A stretch of 64,000 nucleotides of DNA from Mesaphorura yosii (Eukaryota; Arthropoda; Collembola; Poduromorpha; Tullbergiidae), in assembly GCA_009869945.1 (NCBI GenBank), contig WIXG01000184.1, positions 1 through 64,000 on the forward strand, given 5' to 3'. The translations under genes were made by a program, and so were the position numbers. This document shows positions 4,953 to 42,490 of the stretch, in pieces. Below the pieces are notes generated by a model, which saw only the letters and a program-made list of their open reading frames with translations, searched no databases and was not told where the DNA came from. Position 1 is the stretch's first letter. The number at the start of each line of letters is the position of its first letter.

Positions 4953-5993
4953 TGGACTCCACTCCTTCGTTGATTTGCTGTGACTCCACGTACCCGTATT
5001 TGATTACTTGAAATGTATTACTATCAACTCTAGTTGAATGGCAACTCAACTCTTGTTACTCTATCAATGAAAGCATCTAAATAAAGAATATAATAGACGT
5101 AAACGTCATTTTCCTATGTGCCTTTGCATTTAGAATTTTTCTTTACATGGGTTCAGATGTTTCAGAGAACAAGTTAAATACAGCTTTGTTGCCATTTATG
5201 CGGAAGAACATGCAAAAAAAATACTCTTTATGAAAAGCACTTCACTCATTTCTTGATGTAATCGTTCTCTTGGCAATAAAAAAGCGGACCATCCAGAATC
5301 AAGCCGCATGATCTAACATGGCCTGAAGTTGTAGCGTCCTCACTCTCATTCCGAGACGAGGAAATGATATGGTTAATTGCATTGCACAGTTCTGATACTT
5401 ATATACAAGACAGCGGCAAAAATGTGTGTAGAGTGGGGCAAAATTCTTGCCTCTGCTGCTTTTATTATCATGAGCGAAAAGTCGTAAGACTGTAATGAAT
5501 TTGAAAGTGTTGTTGTGTTACATGATCCCATTGCATTTTCGGTCCCAGAGTAAGAGTTACAAAAGGCATGGACATGGACAAACGGGAAAACGAGGGAGAG
5601 AGCAAAAGACGGAAGAATTAAAAACTCAAGCGCTTACTGCTTTCTTCGAGTCCGGTGCCTCTGCCTCTGCTGCTTTAGGGGCAGAGGAGCTGACGGTATG
5701 AGCTTGTGCAAGTGGAGAAAAGAAGCTGAAGGAAGAAAGTCGAATCGCATCGTTTGCCAGCCTGCACTGCACGCTTATCTGTCCACCGTTCTGAATTCAA
5801 TATATTACAAGACAAAGAACTGGCGCATGCCGGATTATATGGGATGCTGGGCCTGGCTTCCTCTCCTTTATCGGATGTTGGGAGTTCAGGCTGCAGTGCA
5901 TGGAGCAACGACGGAGGAAAAAGCCGGGTCCTCTCCTTTCGCCTGAACATCCAGAAACAGAGGGTTTGATGGAAAGCTGCTGCTGCTGGAGTG
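4953..5993 (+). other. GFUS 3' flank and intergenic DNA
   Basis: Holds the GFUS poly(A) signal (AATAAA, 5080-5085) and then about 900 nt without a supportable gene, leading to the DAGL promoter. Confidence 0.45.
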
Positions 5994-30302: not shown

Positions 30303-33300
30303 ATGTCTGGCCTTTTCTCCAGGTGGCTTTCGAATCTACAACAACAACCTGCAATGGCAGACGTTACGTACAACGATCGTTCTTCAGCAGGTATACCAAA
30401 TTCATTAAGATTCTCTCATCTTCTTTCGTTCCCCTTCCGCAAAACTGCTAAAATTCTAAACTGATCTCTGAGTTAGTTTCCAAATTAGAGGGAAAATTCT
30501 TAAAAATAGACTTAAGAACTTCACACGCTAGTAGAATAAGTAGAAGTGTAGAAACACAACTCGCTTCATTTTCAAGTTCCGGTAGCTTATTACCTGTTTT
30601 GCAATTTCTCATTTTCGTAATTCCAGTGACTCATTTTAACTCATTTTGCCTTTTTATTTTGTAGGCGATCACATTTCGTATTTCTATTCCTTTCTTGAGT
30701 TGATCGCTGTATCGGTCATTTCATTACTGCTCCTCTTTTTTGTGAGAAGAAGAGGTGCGTGTTTTCTTTTTCGCAAGGAGTTTCTCATATTCTTAATTGT
30801 TTACTCGTATAAGAATAATTTTTACATTGTTGTTTTGGACAATTATTCATGCGTTGTATTTTTGTTCTGTTATTTTCGCTTCGTTACTGTCGTGTTGCTC
30901 GTCACTAACAATATCACCTTCCTTCGTGTTCGCGCACCCGTTGCCCAATTAAGACGGTCATGACCATGAAAACTCTCTTAACGATGATGATCCGCAACGT
31001 GTCAATTTTGTTGTTGGAGATGGTGAGGATTTGGCTTGCGATGATGAAAACGGACTCGAGAACGAAGATCAATTCGGCAGGAAAGACAGCTCGTCCAGCG
31101 ACTCCACGCCGGCCATCAACCATCGAGCCGAGATAATTTCCAAGAACTTGGCTGAACGCCGGAAGCGTCTCAGGTAAGAAATCTCTCTTTCTCATTTTCA
31201 CCGTTTTGCAATCAATGCCAGGCTCACAGACGCAAATTGGAAATGCTTTCTGCCTCTTTCCATTGATAATTGGAATTTCAAAACCTAAATCCAGTGTTTC
31301 TAGTACAAGTTCCGTAATTCAGGCAATTCATGGGAGTTTATTATAGTCATTACATTAGATAGGCTCTCGAGGTCAAGGTCTTTCGCAACGGATAGCCGAA
31401 GTGTAGCTTATTAAAGATAAAGCAGGCCAAAATTTTACAAACTCCAAGAGGTTAAATGGGAAACTTTTTGCTATCGTAAAGGTAACTCGGGATTCATTAT
31501 TACCTATTCCTCCTCATCAGAAGTAGTTTAAGCCCTTGAAACTTAGCCAGTATGAAACTCAGCCCTCATACATACGTACTTCTGTGTCAGCATCGTTCCT
31601 TTTGAGTAAACGACAGCATCTACAAATATCATACAAGACAGGGAAGCAATTTCATAATTTTGCTTCGTCATTCATTCTTGCCACGTTTGATTGTTGAATC
31701 TCATTGAGTAAAATTGCCAGGACATGCAATTTGCAATAATGATGCATTTAGGTTCATTTAGTTCATTTCTAGCACACGTTTAGCATCTTTGTCTGCCGCA
31801 AAACAAGCTTGCCCATTAATTTGATCTGCTACATGGGAACTTTGCCACAGTGTTAATTTTGAACATTGTAAGAGCATTGGTGTGAGCCCCATCGTCTCAT
31901 CGTGGCGTGTGTAGAATCTGTGGTTCGTCGTACGGTAGTGGTCAGTTCGTTGTGTCAGGAAAGTAACGTCGTACAGTCTAACTGCGTTCCGTGCGTCTAG
32001 CAGAGTGAGCCGTCCACATTGATCTCGCTCGCAGGCTCGCATCATCGCTGCGCGGCACCCAACTACGACGTGAAGCCGTCTGTGAGCGACTGACTAGCAA
32101 CGCACGATCGGATCATCCGTCTCATTGCGAACAATGATGACATGTGATAATTTTTCCCCATTTCATATTTAACGACACATGTTTCTCGTTCCCAAGCCAT
32201 GATTTTCGCATGAACTTATCGCGACAGGGACTGCATGTGAGAGATAAACAAGTCCAGTGGGCCTTCCAGTCCAGAACCTCAGCACGTAGTCTTGTCACTA
32301 CTTCAGATGTACATATTACATAATACCAATTACAAGTTGACTGCGATTGCAGCTTTTTAATGCATGTGGTCTGTGAGGATCTGTACAGTTTCAGTCTTCC
32401 ATTTCATCCTTTTGGAGTCCGGCTTCCTGACACGAAGCTCGTTGCAATTAGTTTGCAGAGTTCCTTGAGCCACTGCGCTGGTATTGTTGCATCGTACCTC
32501 GTTAGGTCTCTAGTCCATTATGTGCTGTGATTTGTGAAACATCGACACGAAAACACCACGAGATTCGCAAGTGCAAGACTTGCCAACGCTTAAAGTGAAT
32601 CTCGGGTCTCAATTGCAATTACGTTGAGACTCCATCGCAACGGAACAGAGTGACGCATTCCTGAAGAGAACTAGGAATCGCCAGAATCCCTTTCTGAGAT
32701 TAAATCGTCTTGAGTCTGACTCGGTTCTTTCTTTCACCTGTTTCACTTCCACATGGCAACGCTCAGGTACAACGCACAAACTTGTATCCATACGTACTGA
32801 TTACGTCAATACGAACGTTAAGTCAGCCCGATTGATTCAAAACTTCATTCAGATTTTCATGCAACGCTAAACTTTCGACTTCTTGCGAGGAATCTTCTTT
32901 CGAAGAAAATCTTGTGAGATTTTAAGTTTCAGTGACCATTATTGTCCTAAACGTGCGCAAAAGTAAGACCTCATAGAACAGCCACACTGAACCCAAATTC
33001 TCTGCCCGTGCTGTTGACCATCAGAGTTTAAATCATTTTCTCTGTTATCAGCTTTATCTCGCGTGCAAAGATTTAGACCCATAATCTCAATATTTATCAC
33101 CAATTTCACTCTTTGAGATTCACCCGAAGCATCTCTCCTCAATTTCCCTTGTCTACGACTGAAGGTTTTATTAATTGAAGCACGCGTACCGTCGTAATTC
33201 GCAGCAGCATGGTTGTAAGGTCTGTCGTGTCTCAACATCGACTCAACTTTTCAAGGTTGAGAGTGAGATTAGCTTAGCACAACTTCATTTGAGCTTGGCC

Positions 33301-36300
33301 TGATTATAGTAGAGAGGTCGGGATTGCACCAGACGCGGTGATGGCTACTGAGGATCACAAGATTCTCGGTGATAGTTAAGCGTTACTTTTACTTCATTGA
33401 ACAAAGTTAAATTGTCTGTTTTTAGACCGAGCATGTCATACGGAACAATGCTACGTGACCGATATCCGGAGCCGCGAGATGTCACCGTCGCCACTCCTGA
33501 GGAATTTGTCAAGAAATTCAATGGCACTAAAGTCATCGACAGAGTAAGCCGCTCATAAAGAAATTCAACTAAGAACGCAGCTAAAAGTCGCTGACTGAAA
33601 TCCTTTCCCGCAGGTGCTCATCGCTAACAATGGAATTGCTGCTGTGAAGTGTATGCGATCTGTCCGTCGTTGGGCCTACGAGATGTTCCGGAATGAGAGG
33701 GCAATTCGTTTCGTCGTGATGGTTACTCCGGAGGACCTGAAGGCCAATGCGGAATACATAAAAATGGCGGACCACTACGTTCCGGTTCCCGGCGGCTCCA
33801 ATAACAACAACTACGCAAATGTGGAACTGATTTTGGACATTGCCAAGAGAATGCAAGTGCAGGCTGTTTGGGCTGGATGGGGTCACGCCTCAGAAAACCC
33901 AAAGTTGCCTGAATTATTGGGGAAGAACGGAATTGCTTTCATTGGACCGCCAGAAAAGGCAATGTGGGCTCTCGGTGACAAAATTGCATCTAATATTGTG
34001 GCTCAAACTACCGATATTCCAACTTTACCGTGGTCTGGTTCTGGTAAGAAATTCGTCTGCATTCTCGTGAAGAGCATTTAACAATTCAGTATTTCATGAG
34101 AATTGTTTTCATCTCAGGCCTTGTTGCTAAATCCTTCGGAAAGGACAAGAAGATAAAAATTCCAAATGAATTGTATCAGAAGGGCTGCGTTAATACGATT
34201 GAAGAAGGGTTGAAGGCATCTCAGGTAATCGGATTCCCAGTCATGATCAAGGCTAGTGAAGGAGGCGGTGGTAAAGGAATCCGAAAAGCAGAAAGTGAAG
34301 ACGATTTTCCAAACCTGTTCCGACAAGTCCAAGCTGAAGTACCTGGATCTCCAATCTTCATTATGAAACTTGCTACCTGCGCTAGGCATCTTGAAGTACA
34401 GCTTCTGGCTGATCAATACGGAAACGCAATTTCCCTGTTTGGTCGTGATTGCTCAATTCAAAGAAGACATCAAAAAATTATTGAAGAAGCTCCGTGCATT
34501 ATCGCCAACGAAGAAGTGTTTGAACAAATGGAGAAGGTGGGCCACATCTTAAGATAATCTTGACCCAAAATCAATTCGGATCAAATCACTTCTTACTATT
34601 GTGTTATCTAAATTAGGCTGCAGTTCGCTTGGCAAAAATGGTTGGATATGTCAGTGCTGGCACTGTTGAATATCTCTACGGCAATGATGGCTTCTTCTTC
34701 CTAGAGTTAAACCCTAGACTTCAAGTCGAGCATCCATGTACGGAAATGGTTGCAGATGTCAATCTTCCAGCGTCTCAGTTACAGGTAATTCAACTTGGGT
34801 TATAATTCCGAACACATTCGTTTTTTAATAAATTCCGTTTTTTTAAATTCCAGATTGCAATGGGTATTCCCTTGTACCGTATTAAATGTATCAGGACACT
34901 CTACGGCGAGAATCCATGGGGAGACACTCCAATCGATTTCGACCAACCCAGGAATAAGCCACAGCCTTGGGGCCATGTAATCGCTGCTAGAATTACAAGC
35001 GAAAATCCTGATGAAGGTGAGATTTTTCATAATGCATCATTCGAACTCGTGGAACTTTCAGTAAAGTTTTCGTAATTCGTAATTAGGATTTAAGCCAAGC
35101 AGCGGTACAGTTCAAGAACTCAACTTCCGGTCTTCCAAGAATGTCTGGGGCTACTTTAGCGTTGCTGCTTCTGGAGGCCTTCATGAATTTGCAGACTCTC
35201 AATTCGGCCATTGTTTCTCCTGGGGTGAAGACAGGGAACAGGCTCGAGAGTAAGATTCCGGAAAAGAACGAATTCATAAGCAAAACGTTCTGGAAACATT
35301 TTTCCTTCGACCTTCTTTAGAAATTTGGTGATTGCCTTGAAAGAACTGTCAATTCGAGGTGACTTCCGCACGACAGTTGAGTACCTGATCACTCTATTGG
35401 AGACTGACGCTTTCCAAAACAACACAATTGACACAAGCTGGTTGGATGCGCTGATTGCTGAACGAATGAAAGCTGACAAGCCGGACATAATGCTCGGTGT
35501 GATTTGTGGTGCTCTCCATATTGCTGATCAGACCATTCTTAACGCTTTCCAAAACTTTCAAATATCATTGGAGAGGTAAGTTGAAAAGATGTACTACTCA
35601 CTACTCGTGTACTCACAATGAATGCATCAACTATCTGGAACAGAATTAACAATCTATTTTCTTTTTGTAATTGGTAATTTAGAGGACAAATACTTCCTGC
35701 AAACACTCTCCGCAATTCCGTTGAAATCGAACTTATTCACGAAGGAGTCAAGTACAAAGTCGATGCTGTGAAAAATGGACCAAACTCTTACTTTTTAGTT
35801 ATGAACGAATCACACAAGGAGGTTGAAGTTCATCGAATGTCCGACGGAGGTATCCAAATGCATACGTTGTCACGATTTGTCAGTTCATTGTATGCAAAGT
35901 ATATCTCATTCGTTTGTCTCAGGTTTACTGATGTCTGTTGACGGAGCGAGTTACTCAACCTTCATGAAAGAAGAAATTGATCGCTACAGGGTTGTAATCG
36001 GAAATCAAACCTGTGTTTTCGAGAAAGAAAATGATCCCACTTTGTTAAGATCGCCCTCTGCAGGGAAGTTGCTCGGATATCTCGTCGAAGACGGAGGACA
36101 CTTGTACGCTGGTCAAGCCTTCGCAGAAATCGAGGTTTCTTGTTGAGAGTTGAAATTAAATTATTGAAATTTCATATTGTGAAAATGTAATGTCTTGTTT
36201 AGGTGATGAAAATGGTCATGACTTTGACTGCTACCGAGTCTGGGTGCATACAATACAAAAAGCGCCCGGGTGCCGTCTTGGATGCTGGCTCCCTCATTGC

Positions 36301-39300
36301 TCGACTGGAGCTAGATGACGCATCTAAGGTTACGCGTGCAGTTATGTTCCAAGGCCAGTTCCCACCCAGTAACGGTTCTCTCACCTGCACTGGAGACAAA
36401 CTCAACCAGGTCTATCAAGCTTGCAAAACCACACTAGAAAATACATTTAGTGGTAAGTTGCATAAACTGCTAAGCAAATCGTACAGTTACAAGTTGGAGA
36501 CCTGTTTCATGTGTCTATAACTGGTAACAAACAGGATATTGTCTTCCGGATCCCTACTTTGCTCCGAAGATCAAAGAAATTGTAGAAAAGTTCATGAAAG
36601 CTTTAAGAGATCCCAACCTGCCTTTGCTAGAACTTCAGGTTCGTCGTCAGTTTTTATAGCAGTTTGACTTTTGAATACCACACAGTTCGTCATTACATCT
36701 TTTTCATTTCAGGAGGTAATTTCTTCCATCTCAGGGCGAATTCCACCTTCCGTGGAGAAGAAAATTCGAAAACTCATGGGTCTTTATGCCAGTAATATTA
36801 CCTCAGTCTTGGCTCAATTTCCTAGTCAACAAATCGCTAGCGTGATTGACAGGTAAATCGTCAAATTCTCGACGGAGCAGAGACCAGTTCAAGTAACTTT
36901 AAACGTTTCATTGTAGTCACGCGGCAACACTTCAGAAACGTGCAGAAAGAGACGTCTTTTTCATGACAACCCAAGGCATTGTTCAGCTGGTTCAGCGGTA
37001 CCGTAATGGCATCCGTGGTCGCATGAAGTCAGCAGTTCAAGAACTCCTTAAGAACTACCTTGCTTGCGAAACTCAATTTCAACACGGCCATTACGACAAA
37101 TGTGTGTCAGTGCTTCGGGAAAAGCACAAGGACGACATGGTATCGGTTGCAGCCACAATTTTCTCTCACTACCAGGCAAGTCATAATCATTTAAGATCTG
37201 CTAGACGTCGTTCATCTTCAATCGGTCATTGATTTTCAAACGTATTATGCAGGTTGCCAAGAAGAATGTTTTAGTAACCATTTTGATTGATCATGTCTGG
37301 GCAAATGAGCCGGGATTAACCGATGAACTTGCTCCAATTTTGAATGAATTGACAACTTTAAGCCGCACCGAGAATTCAAGAGTTGCGCTAAGATCACGTC
37401 AGGTGAGCTCTAATTAATTTTCTACTGCGACTTACATTTTTATACCTAATTTTGTATATTTGGTTTAGATTCTGATCGCAGCACACCAGCCAGCCTACGA
37501 GTTGCGTCACAATCAAATGGAATCCATCTTTCTGTCGGCAATTGACATGTACGGTCACGATTTCCATCCCGAGAACTTGCAGAAGCTTATTATGTCCGAA
37601 ACTTCAATATTTGACGTTCTACACGACTTCTTCTACCATCCTAACAAGGCTGTTCGGATGGCTGCGCTTGAGGTGTACGTTCGAAGAGCGTACATTTCTT
37701 ATGAGTTGACCTGTTTGCAACATCAGGAATTGTATGGATCAATGTGCATTGTGCAATTCCAATTTCTTCTTCCAACTTCTCATCCAAATCGGTGTGTCAT
37801 AGAACTTTTGATAGCTTTGCTAGTTAAATGGTCGAAAAGTTACCAAATCTTACGCTACTTTTGCAGGATTCCACACAACAAAGCTTGCCACATGATGAAC
37901 CACGTACCTTCCATTGAAGAAATGCAATACACGGACATGCAGCTGGTTAATCTTGAAGACTGTCAGAGAACAGGGATTATGGCAGCTTTCACGAAATTTG
38001 AGGAGTTTGTTACTTACTTTGACGAGCTGATGGATCAGTACGTACTAGACTCGCCACCAAACTCACCCAGAGCCAGACATAGCGAAAGTGAAGATACCAA
38101 GCTCAGCTCATCAGTCAGCTCGAACTATGGAGAATCTAACATGAACGACAACGAATCCGTGGTATGATTTACGAATGTAAAACGTGACAGATCAAACCAG
38201 TTATGGGCAGCCAAATCATGAACGGAATTTTTTATTTGCAGCCTCCAGAACCTGTTCACATCCTTAATATTGCACTCAAGGCGGAGATTGAAGTGGACGA
38301 CAGTATTTTAGCCGAACAGTTTTCTACTTTTTGCTCAAAGAACGTGGATAAGTTTACCGACAAGTCAATCCGTCGGATAACCTTTGTCGTGCTTTCAAGG
38401 TTTGACATACTTTATTTAAATCAGCACATTTGTGAAAGTTTGGCCCCATTGTCTAATTTCCACATTTTCTTTATTGAAGCAGGAAACAATTCCCGAAATA
38501 CTTCACATATCGCGCTCGTGATAATTTCACAGAAGACAGAATTTATCGCCATCTTGAACCAGCACTAGCATTCCAGCTTGAAATCAACCGAATGAGAACA
38601 TATGAGCTTGAAGCATTGACAACTTCGAACCAGAAAATGCACATGTACCTGGGTAAAGCGAAGGTCGCCAAGGGACAAGAAGTGACCGACTACCGATTTT
38701 TCGTTCGCTCGATCATCCGTCACTCAGATCTTATCACAAAAGAAGCATCATTCGAATACTTACAAAATGAGGGCGAGCGTCTTCTGTTGGAGTCTATGGA
38801 CGAGCTTGAGGTCGCCTTTTCACATCCGCACAGCAGACGAACAGATTGCAATCACATCTTCCTTAACTTCGTTCCTACTGTCATCATGGACCCAGCAAAG
38901 GTAGAATTACTTTTTGTTTTGATTGCGGGGAAATTACCCTAATAATTCAATATTTTGCGCAGATTGAAGAAAGTGTCAGAAGTATGGTGCTTCGCTATGG
39001 ACCTCGGTTGTGGAAACTTAGAGTTTTACAGGCTGAACTCAAAATGACAATTCGTCAAACTCCAAACAGCAAAATCATTCCAATCAGGTTATGCTTGGCC
39101 AACGAAAGCGGCTACTACTTGGACATTAGTCTCTATCGTGAGGTGAATGATCCAAAAACTGGATTGGTAAGACAAACAAAGCACACAATCATCGTCAACA
39201 CGCTGCAGGCATTTTCTAACGAATAGTTTTAATCTTAGATTAAATTCGAGTCATTTGGAAGTAAACTCGGTGTGCTGCACGGGCTTCCAGTTTCCTCGCC

Positions 39301-42300
39301 TTATATGACAAAAGATTATCTTCAGCAGAAGAGATTCCAGGCTCAGAGTAATGGGACAACTTATGTCTACGACTTTCCGGACATGTTTCGCCAAGTCCTT
39401 GTGAATTTGTGGCAAGAGCGTAGAGAAGCTCTTGAAGCGGACGGCACAAGTAAGCTTACACGATTTTGACATTTGTAATAAGTTAAGTAGTAGCAAGGTC
39501 ACTTGTTAATTGAATATACACTCAACTATTCCTTAGTGGATGAGCTGGAAGTGCCTGCCCAACCGCTGCAATACGTTGAGCTTGTTCTCGATTCTCAGGA
39601 TCAACTCATCGAGCAAAAAAGACTTCCTGGAGAGAACGAGGTAAGAAATCAGAAACTAGATCTAATTCTAATAGTCCGCCGCATAGGCTAACAACTGATT
39701 TGTGAGTAGATTGGAATGGTTGCTTGGAAGATGACTCTATTGACACCAGAATACCCGAATGGCCGAGACATTATTGTCATCGCAAACGATATCACTTTCA
39801 TGATAGGATCGTTTGGAATTCGCGAAGATATTTTGTTTTTGAAGGCTTCCGAACTCTCACGAAAGTTAAAGATTCCCCGCATTTACGTTGCGGCAAACAG
39901 TGGCGCAAGAATCGGCTTGGCGGAAGAAATTAAGCACTTGTTCCGTATTTCGTGGGTCGACCGTGATGAGCCAGACAAAGGATTCCGATATTTGTACTTG
40001 TCCCCGGAAGACTACTCCAAGGTAGCTAATCTCAATTCAATCCACGCTACCCTTATCGAAGACGAGGGAGAAGCAAGATACAAGATCACCGACATTATTG
40101 GTAATATCACAATCTAAATGCATAATAATGCGTTGATTTAATATCAGTAACTCGAATACCTTGTTTCTATTTCATAGGCAAAGATGAAGGCTTGGGCGTT
40201 GAGAATTTGAGATATGCAGGAACAATTGCCGGTGAGACGTCACAAGCATACAAAGAGGTCATTACGATATCAATGGTTACGTGCCGTGCAATCGGAATTG
40301 GTGCATATCTTGTTCGTCTTGGACAACGCGTGATTCAGATTGAAAATTCACATATCATTCTAACTGGATACGGAGCTCTTAACAAGGTTTGTGCTTTAGG
40401 TCTTTGCCTTTCTTGAAATCATAGGATGAAGGGTTCACTTTAAAATGCAATTCTGCAGCTTTTGGGTCGAGAGGTGTACACATCGAACAACCAGTTGGGA
40501 GGCATTCAAATCATGTATCACAATGGAGTCTCTCACAAAGCAGAACGCCATGATATGGAAGGCATCCAGCGAATTTTGAAGTGGTTATCATTCATGCCAG
40601 CTTACAAAGGATGTCCACTGCCAATTCTAGAACCCGTTGACCCAATCGAAAGAGAAATTGCTTTCGCCCCCACAAGAGCTCCTTACGATTCACGTTGGCT
40701 TTTCACCGGAAGACAAAATCCACGTGAGTTCTAACGCTTAGCTTAAAGTAAGGAAATTTGTTGTGTCCGTTCTTTGTTATATCTTTATATTTGTCGTACA
40801 GTTAGCCCAGGTGATTGGGAAAGTGGTTTCTTGGATTACGGTTCATTCGATGAAATTATGAGAAACTGGGCTCAAACGGTTATTGTCGGAAGAGGTCGTC
40901 TTGGTGGAATCCCTGTCGGAGCAATTTGCGTTGAAACTCGAACGGTTGAACTCAATCTGCCTGCAGATCCAGCAAATCTGGACTCTGAAGCCAGGGTACA
41001 TTTTGTTGGCAGTCGTAGCGATATGCGAATTCGTATAATTTTCAGAAAAATTAACATATTTCTTTCGCGTGTAGATTGTCGCTCAAGCCGGTCAGGTTTG
41101 GTTCCCAGACTCTGCGTACAAGACTGCCCAAGCTATCATGGACTTCAGCAAGGAAGAGTTGCCACTGGTAATTTTTGCCAACTGGAGGGGATTCTCTGGA
41201 GGAATGAAAGGTAATATTTTAAAAAAAGATTTTCATAACAAACTATTTACATTTAATCCTTTTAATTCAGACATGTACGAGCAAGTAGTAAAATTCGGAG
41301 CGTATATTGTGGATGGACTTCGCGAGTACCAACAGCCTATCATAGTGTACATTCCCCCGTATGGAGAATTGCGCGGTGGGGCGTGGGTGGTCATTGATCC
41401 AACGATTAACCAAAGACACATGGAAATGTACGCGGATCCCGAAGCACGTGGTGGAATTCTAGAACCAGAGGGTATTGTTGAGATCAAGTTCAGGATGAAA
41501 GATCAAACCAAAGCAATGCACAGGTTAAATAGTTCCATGAAGATGCGCAATAAACGGAGGTCAAGTGCCAAGTCATAACATTCGCTCTTGTCTGAATTCT
41601 TAGGTTGGACCCTGAATTGATTCAGCTCCGAACTGAGCTTTTGAATCTGACCGATCCTAAATCAGAAGCGAAGTTTGCAATTGAGAAGAAGATATCGGAA
41701 CGAGAGCAGCTCTTGAAACCAATGTACCATCAAATTGCTGTGCACTTTGCTGATCTTCATGACACTCCAGAGCGCATGCACGATAAGGGAGTTATTAAGG
41801 TACCTATTCCTTTGTGATTTATTCCTCGACCTATTCTAAATGTGATTGTTTTCAAAACAGGAAATTGTTCCATGGAAGAACGCTAGAACACAGTTGTACT
41901 GGAGACTGCGGCGCCTACTTCTTGCCCAAAGTGTTGAATCTCAGATTCATGAGTACAGACCAGGTTTAGCTCATGGACAAGTTGAAGTCATGCTGGCACG
42001 TTGGTTTATCGAAGACAAGGGAACATCACAAGTAATTAGAATCGAACTTCTAACTCCATTTGTTTATTTACTGTTCTTAATTTGAAAATGGAATTTCCAA
42101 CAATTCTCTGAAATCTTAGGGGCATTTGTGGGACGACAATCGCGCAGTCGTGGAGTGGCTTTCGTCCCAGTTGGACGAAAATAATTCAAAATCCGTTGTA
42201 CTTGAAAATCTCAAATGCTTATGCAGAGATAAGGTTTTGAACCAAGCCAATAGACTCATCGAGGTAAGGAATTTGATACGTAGGAAAGGGCATTGACAGA

Positions 42301-42490
42301 CAATTACAATTTGTGTTCTATTCCACAGGAATATCCTGAGCTGGCCATTGATTCAGTTGTCCAATTGCTTCAACGAATGACGTCTGGTCAACGTGCCGAA
42401 GCAATTCGAGCAATATCCAAAATCGAAGGTGTGTGTATTCCGACAGATGCTTCCAAACAAACAGACGCTGAGGCTGAGACCTCGTCATAG
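30303..42490 (+). CDS. ACC: acetyl-CoA carboxylase, complete multidomain enzyme
   Basis: Makes malonyl-CoA from acetyl-CoA, bicarbonate and ATP. Exons: 30303-30390, 30954-31173, 33426-33543, 33614-34043, 34118-34536, 34617-34784, 34854-35016, 35087-35249, 35321-35575, 35683-35849, 35923-36134, 36203-36452, 36535-36638, 36713-36852, 36917-37175, 37253-37402, 37469-37791, 37867-38161, 38242-38399, 38483-38900, 38963-39166, 39239-39449, 39537-39640, 39710-40100, 40178-40386, 40459-40723, 40802-40995, 41075-41210, 41271-41523, 41604-41799, 41861-42031, 42120-42263, 42329-42490; 2379 residues (human ACC1 2346). The AMPK-type site [10 protein letters not shown] has Ser about 107. Biotin carboxylase runs about 110-640 with the ATP loop EGGGGKG near 333-339. 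The biotin site VMKM has Lys about 804. The central domain follows, then carboxyltransferase from about 1570 (NWRGFSGGM). An upstream in-frame ATG at 30204 is possible. The intron at 37176-37252 uses a GC donor. Confidence 0.97.
30665..30754 (+). other. 90-nt in-frame cassette exon of ACC encoding a membrane segment
   Basis: An acceptor TTTTATTTTGTAG and a donor GTGCGT bound 90 nt with phase 1 at both ends, exactly the phase of the flanking ACC exons (30390 and 30954). Including or skipping it therefore keeps the reading frame. It codes 30 residues, [18 protein letters not shown]... ending in [10 protein letters not shown]. This is one strongly hydrophobic segment capped by three arginines, placed at about residues 30-59 of ACC. 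A hydrophobic N-terminus is what tethers vertebrate ACC2 to mitochondria. The sequence itself is not recognisably homologous. Confidence 0.65.
31174..33425 (+). other. 2.25-kb ACC intron splitting the AMPK site
   Basis: The largest ACC intron. It separates RRKRL from PSMSYGTM, with the arginine codon itself split. I see no further exon; a short ATG frame near 33342 was rejected on phase. Confidence 0.6.

Follow-up and report, generated by a model that had tools for sequence, protein, structure and literature searches.

According to passages of one study (PMC2629817), vertebrate ACC2 (ACACB) has a hydrophobic N-terminus in front of an ACC1-like enzyme, and in the human isoform ACC2.v2 the first 218 residues, including the hydrophobic part, are exchanged for 16 others through use of an alternative first exon; forms with and without the segment thereby come from one gene. 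In yeasts (Kluyveromyces lactis ACC and S. cerevisiae ACC1/HFA1), passages of another study, which reports complementation tests, propose that a single ACC gene has two destinations, reached by means of an optional N-terminal stretch (PMC4263661). Insects are described in passages of three papers as having one ACC gene per genome (PMC3431307, PMC11735997, PMC8710053), as in Drosophila (CG11198) and Trichoplusia ni (PMC3431307, PMC11735997). The word “isoform” is absent from the texts of PMC11735997 and PMC3431307 and the word “transmembrane” from that of PMC11735997, and the passages on ACC in these two papers mention no membrane-anchored form, unlike the proposal made here. Among the matches listed in text searches of the open literature, none described an anchor exon in an arthropod ACC; annotation databases may already contain such an isoform without comment.

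Here, we describe a candidate cassette exon, E1b, in the ACC gene of the collembolan Mesaphorura yosii. The gene lies within a 64,000-nt stretch of contig WIXG01000184.1 (assembly GCA_009869945.1), which was analysed as a whole and is referred to below as the window. As with ACC2 and ACC2.v2, one gene would give forms with and without a hydrophobic segment ahead of an ACC1-like enzyme. In vertebrates, however, ACC2 is a second gene and its forms differ by their first exon, whereas here there is one gene and a candidate internal cassette. The ACC2 anchor also sits at the very N-terminus, while the helix predicted here starts 34 residues in. The arrangement would share with the one proposed for the yeasts the use of one gene for two compartments, but that one relies on a start-codon switch and a mitochondrial import signal, whereas splicing and a membrane anchor are proposed here. 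We raise convergence with ACC2 as a hypothesis. Similarity to full-length human ACC1 starts at residue 74 of the E1b-included form, behind the cassette, and the human ACC2 chains that were compared are fragments, matching from query residue 147 at least, so that the ACC2 N-terminus lies outside this comparison.

The ACC splice model was built by dynamic programming with an exon penalty of 12, meant to suppress spurious exons, and comprised 32 exons (the “penalty-12 model”). Four places in it were corrected by hand to agree with the general ACC pattern, namely one intron that hid a real exon, with the next acceptor misplaced, and three donors. The corrected model has 33 exons, is free of internal stops and encodes 2379 amino acids without E1b and 2409 with it. 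An automatic model of 73 exons, with fragments inside the cassette, was discarded because its exon penalty was too low. The corrected model contains a GC-AG intron (donor 37176-37177, exon ending at 37175, CACTACCAG/GCAAGT, where the slash marks the exon boundary); this donor was picked so that the conserved ACC reading frame stays intact. The introns have a median length of 74 nt; introns 1 and 2, at 563 and 2252 nt, are the only ones longer than 107 nt. Intron 2 (31174-33425) may harbour regulatory elements or a further promoter. The gene encodes a eukaryotic multidomain ACC, with BC, BCCP, central and CT regions in a single chain: the BC region is similar to human ACC1 (E 3.9e-97), the sequence VMKM, which we take to be the biotin motif, is present, the central domain is found as PF08326, and the CT region was presumptively assigned by similarity of the model. 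The coordinates of the features are collected in Table 1.

Table 1. Features of the ACC locus, in window positions. A slash marks the boundary between exon and intron; scores are from the corrected matrices.
Feature	Position	Strand	Description
Whole ACC coding region	30303..42490	+	Splice model; 33 exons without the cassette; PF08326 matches
ACC coding exon 1	30303..30390	+	88 nt (29 codons + 1 nt), ends in phase 1; donor CAG/GTATAC; common to both forms
Pyrimidine tract and acceptor of E1b	30640..30664	+	CTCATTTTGCCTTTTTATTTTGTAG; score 8.48, rank 2 of 33
Candidate cassette exon E1b	30665..30754	+	In intron 1; 90 nt, phase 1-1, 30 residues; first codon shared with exon 1
Purine-rich 3' end of E1b	30744..30754	+	GAGAAGAAGAG, read off the sequence; codes for the RRR cap
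Donor of E1b	30755..30760	+	GTGCGT (GAG/GTGCGT after 30754); score 5.56, rank 12 of 33
CTAAC branch-point-like site (A at 30908) and exon 2 acceptor	30905..30953	+	CCGTTGCCCAATTAAG; weak; common to both forms
ACC coding exon 2	30954..31173	+	Acceptor CAATTAAG/ACG; human ACC1 match begins within this exon

The first-pass annotation had spoken of a single ACC gene, and this was borne out in the 93-Mb assembly (1127 contigs): all eight listed exon matches to the central domain PF08326 fall on WIXG01000184.1, between 36308 and 39163, which argues for one ACC locus as far as the PF08326 search reaches. A second ACC gene, which would stand beside a cytosolic ACC1 as ACC2 does, was considered and set aside, since the same genome search gave no other locus. 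Relatives were also sought in one viral and one genome contig collection; there were no viral matches, and the one matching genome contig belonged to a Nitrospira MAG (L030) and to no arthropod. Its biotin-carboxylase region (5001-5492) is 58% identical to that of the M. yosii ACC, reflecting either contamination or a bacterial ACC that resembles the eukaryotic enzyme. A Pfam search with seven ORF pieces neighbouring ACC returned no families. Elsewhere in the window, an ORF on the minus strand (642-1304) consists of near-identical repeats (KKRLLGLENLVGGLLGK...) split by basic sites, like a multi-copy precursor of secreted peptides; its sole Pfam match was sub-threshold (STPRs, E 0.0081). An ORF on the plus strand (122-565) matches LPMO_10 (PF03067, E 2.7e-6, 28.6 bits, above the cut-off), a domain of polysaccharide mono-oxygenase type. 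For the cuticle domain PF00379, 66 of 69 candidate matches in the genome were above the cut-off, in keeping with an arthropod.

E1b had been noticed in the first-pass annotation as a segment between ACC exons 1 and 2 with its own acceptor and donor and the same phase at both ends, and its boundaries proved exact. The acceptor junction reads TTTTGTAG/GCG, and the letters TTTATTTTGTAG stand directly before E1b. Since the length of E1b is a multiple of three, the reading frame survives inclusion; the skipped form reads ...SSA-DGHDHEN... (DRSSADGHDHEN), and the same Asp codon is restored at the joins whether E1b is in or out. E1b is open in the spliced frame only, both other frames being closed, including by stops in the frame that begins at 30665. 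The consensus splice sites and the frame-neutral length expected of a cassette exon are present. Counting against it, E1b would be shorter than the other internal ACC exons, which measure at least 104 nt, and is close to exon 1 in length. In a search that ignored simple repeats and very common words, E1b with its flanks matched itself alone in the genome, and an origin from a repeat or mobile element is thus unsupported.

In the spliced frame, E1b codes for one predicted transmembrane helix followed by RRR. The best 23-mer of the E1b-included N-terminus (residues 35-57) had an estimated dG of -2.35 and a KD value of 2.56, whereas the skipped N-terminus came no lower than 7.25 and has no helix, in agreement with the earlier description of a single, strongly hydrophobic helix capped by arginines. 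From residue 101 onward, the best segment reached 1.42 (penalty-12 model). A hydrophobic membrane segment ahead of the BC domain, as in ACC2, is therefore predicted only when E1b is included. The reading that we favour, with about an even chance of being right as a whole, is that the single ACC gene truly uses E1b as a small coding exon, and that the enzyme is membrane-anchored when it is included and soluble or loosely bound when it is skipped. What we infer here comprises the use of E1b, its skipping in some tissue or stage, the topology and a local supply of malonyl-CoA.

Splice sites were scored with matrices derived from the 32 introns of the ACC gene itself, real sites being scored leave-one-out. 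The summed score of the two E1b sites, 14.03, was exceeded by only one of the 31 internal ACC exons, whose sums ranged from 3.40 to 15.23. While the E1b acceptor is the second strongest of 33, the competing exon 2 acceptor scores lowest among 32 (-2.32 by leave-one-out, 0.62 when kept in the training set), and it lies twice as far from the exon 1 donor (563 versus 274 nt). Simple competition between acceptors predicts that E1b is mostly included. Because its acceptor is so much the stronger, a constitutive anchor is a serious rival to a switch: E1b would be real, and every ACC transcript from the exon 1 promoter would carry it. “Switch” may thus be wrong and “always anchored” right, since the splice strengths favour inclusion, although we consider this outcome unlikely. 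The exon 2 acceptor is C-rich and may for that reason be undervalued by a T-based matrix. The length of E1b makes skipping harmless, though 6 of the 31 other internal exons are also multiples of three, so that this symmetry by itself is no argument for skipping. The stretch free of AG before exon 2 measures 138 nt, the longest in the 32 introns (the next is 78 nt), and the branch-point-like A lies 45 nt upstream of the end of intron 1. Together with the weakness of the shared exon 2 acceptor, this long stretch and the purine-rich GAGAAGAAGAG, which presumably resembles an exonic splicing enhancer of the GAA type, are compatible with regulated splicing. Judged from the sequence, E1b is a good candidate, rather than an established switch.

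E1b might also be a decoy, in which chance splice-like sites occur in a T-rich intron, T at second codon positions gives rise to hydrophobicity, and the segment is never translated. Beyond its donor, the E1b frame continues uninterrupted through 65 codons of hydrophobic character in the downstream intron, up to a stop at 30961-30963. This T-rich intron also codes for helix-like stretches in three frames (dG -2.11, -0.69 and -0.66), and hydrophobicity is consequently insufficient as proof of E1b. Even so, helices of this strength are scarce: 3482 background 90-mers with comparable T content, each read in one frame and taken from 20 stretches of other contigs with coding sequence kept in, included 896 open ones, and only 18 of the 896 attained a dG of -2. 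The codon statistics of E1b are unlike those of ACC: its full codon log-odds of -4.71 fall below all 227 windows of 30 codons in ACC (mean 7.51). A membrane helix should be codon-atypical compared to the soluble ACC, which softens this result. Synonymous codon choice (-0.05) lies in the 10% tail of the coding and of the intron expectation alike. The coding statistics are thus contrary or silent, and the automatic penalty-12 model had left E1b out.

The splice sites and the frame speak against a decoy. The background, scored with the corrected matrices, amounted to 503,200 strand-bases, made up of the same 20 stretches of 10 kb each and the window outside ACC, on both strands and with exons kept. 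Only ten pairs of sites scored 14.0 or more, and none of the ten had both a length divisible by three and an open phase-1 frame. In-frame open pairs numbered 0 of 34 at a cut-off of 13.0, 8 of 140 at 12.0, 24 of 353 at 11.0 and 49 of 866 at 10.0, with five helix-like cases among these last 49. Cassette scans and shuffles were done with the penalty-12 model matrices. In dinucleotide shuffles of the 563-nt intron 1, an equal in-frame open cassette arose in just 3 of 5000, and one that was also a predicted membrane helix in 0 of 5000. A scan of 5294 intron bases gave six candidates for an in-frame cassette, of which E1b was the best, and one of the other five overlaps the real exon that the penalty-12 model had missed. 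The purine-rich end of E1b within a T-rich region likewise does not fit a decoy. When splice sites and frame are weighed against coding statistics and the omission by the model, E1b is probably a real exon, and a decoy is rather unlikely. Very improbable is the arrangement in which E1b is joined to another first exon and promoter, exon 1 (30303) normally being spliced to exon 2 and two promoters setting the form: passages of PMC2629817 describe human ACC2 forms that arise from alternative first exons, but E1b itself lacks an ATG.

In the favoured reading of an exon that is either included or skipped, inclusion would place one transmembrane helix about 34 residues from the start of ACC, with RRR on the cytosolic side. 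By the positive-inside rule, basic residues flanking a helix tend to stay inside. The tail before the helix has 34 residues, two of them basic and three acidic, and the RRR follows directly after the helix, which together suggests that the tail would come to lie beyond the membrane and that the catalytic part of ACC would remain cytosolic, fixed to the ER or the mitochondrial outer membrane. Signal anchors of the outer membrane, such as that of TOM20, have a C-terminal basic flank and a helix that is only moderately hydrophobic. The E1b helix is strongly hydrophobic, unlike these, and by general targeting rules an anchored ACC would fit the ER no less well than the mitochondrial outer membrane; a mitochondrial destination with control of CPT1 is a guess. 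When E1b is skipped, the frame would continue and ACC would be soluble, or loosely bound to a membrane through its amphipathic start. The beginning of exon 1 (30303-30350) encodes a predicted amphipathic helix (hydrophobic moment of 0.60-0.68 in four windows of 11 residues), so the skipped form, too, may touch membranes.

An anchored ACC might supply malonyl-CoA locally, either to control CPT1 or to serve fatty-acid elongases. The genome contains one match to a CPT1-type N-domain and 48 exon-level matches to ELO elongases, and these proteins could use malonyl-CoA that is produced at a membrane. The wider claim, that one gene replaces the vertebrate pair of ACC1 and ACC2, a 90-nt exon shifting the enzyme between membrane and cytosol and thereby steering malonyl-CoA, is doubtful, if conceivable. 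If it holds, splicing of E1b would decide whether malonyl-CoA reaches a membrane-bound user, CPT1 or elongases, or enters bulk synthesis. Arthropods are reported with one ACC gene, yet malonyl-CoA should be required in two roles, one as a building block and the other in restraining the import of fatty acids into mitochondria; a splice-controlled anchor, if true, would explain how one ACC gene serves both needs. ACC is a target of insecticides and acaricides, and given this, ACC isoforms with different locations would be of practical interest.
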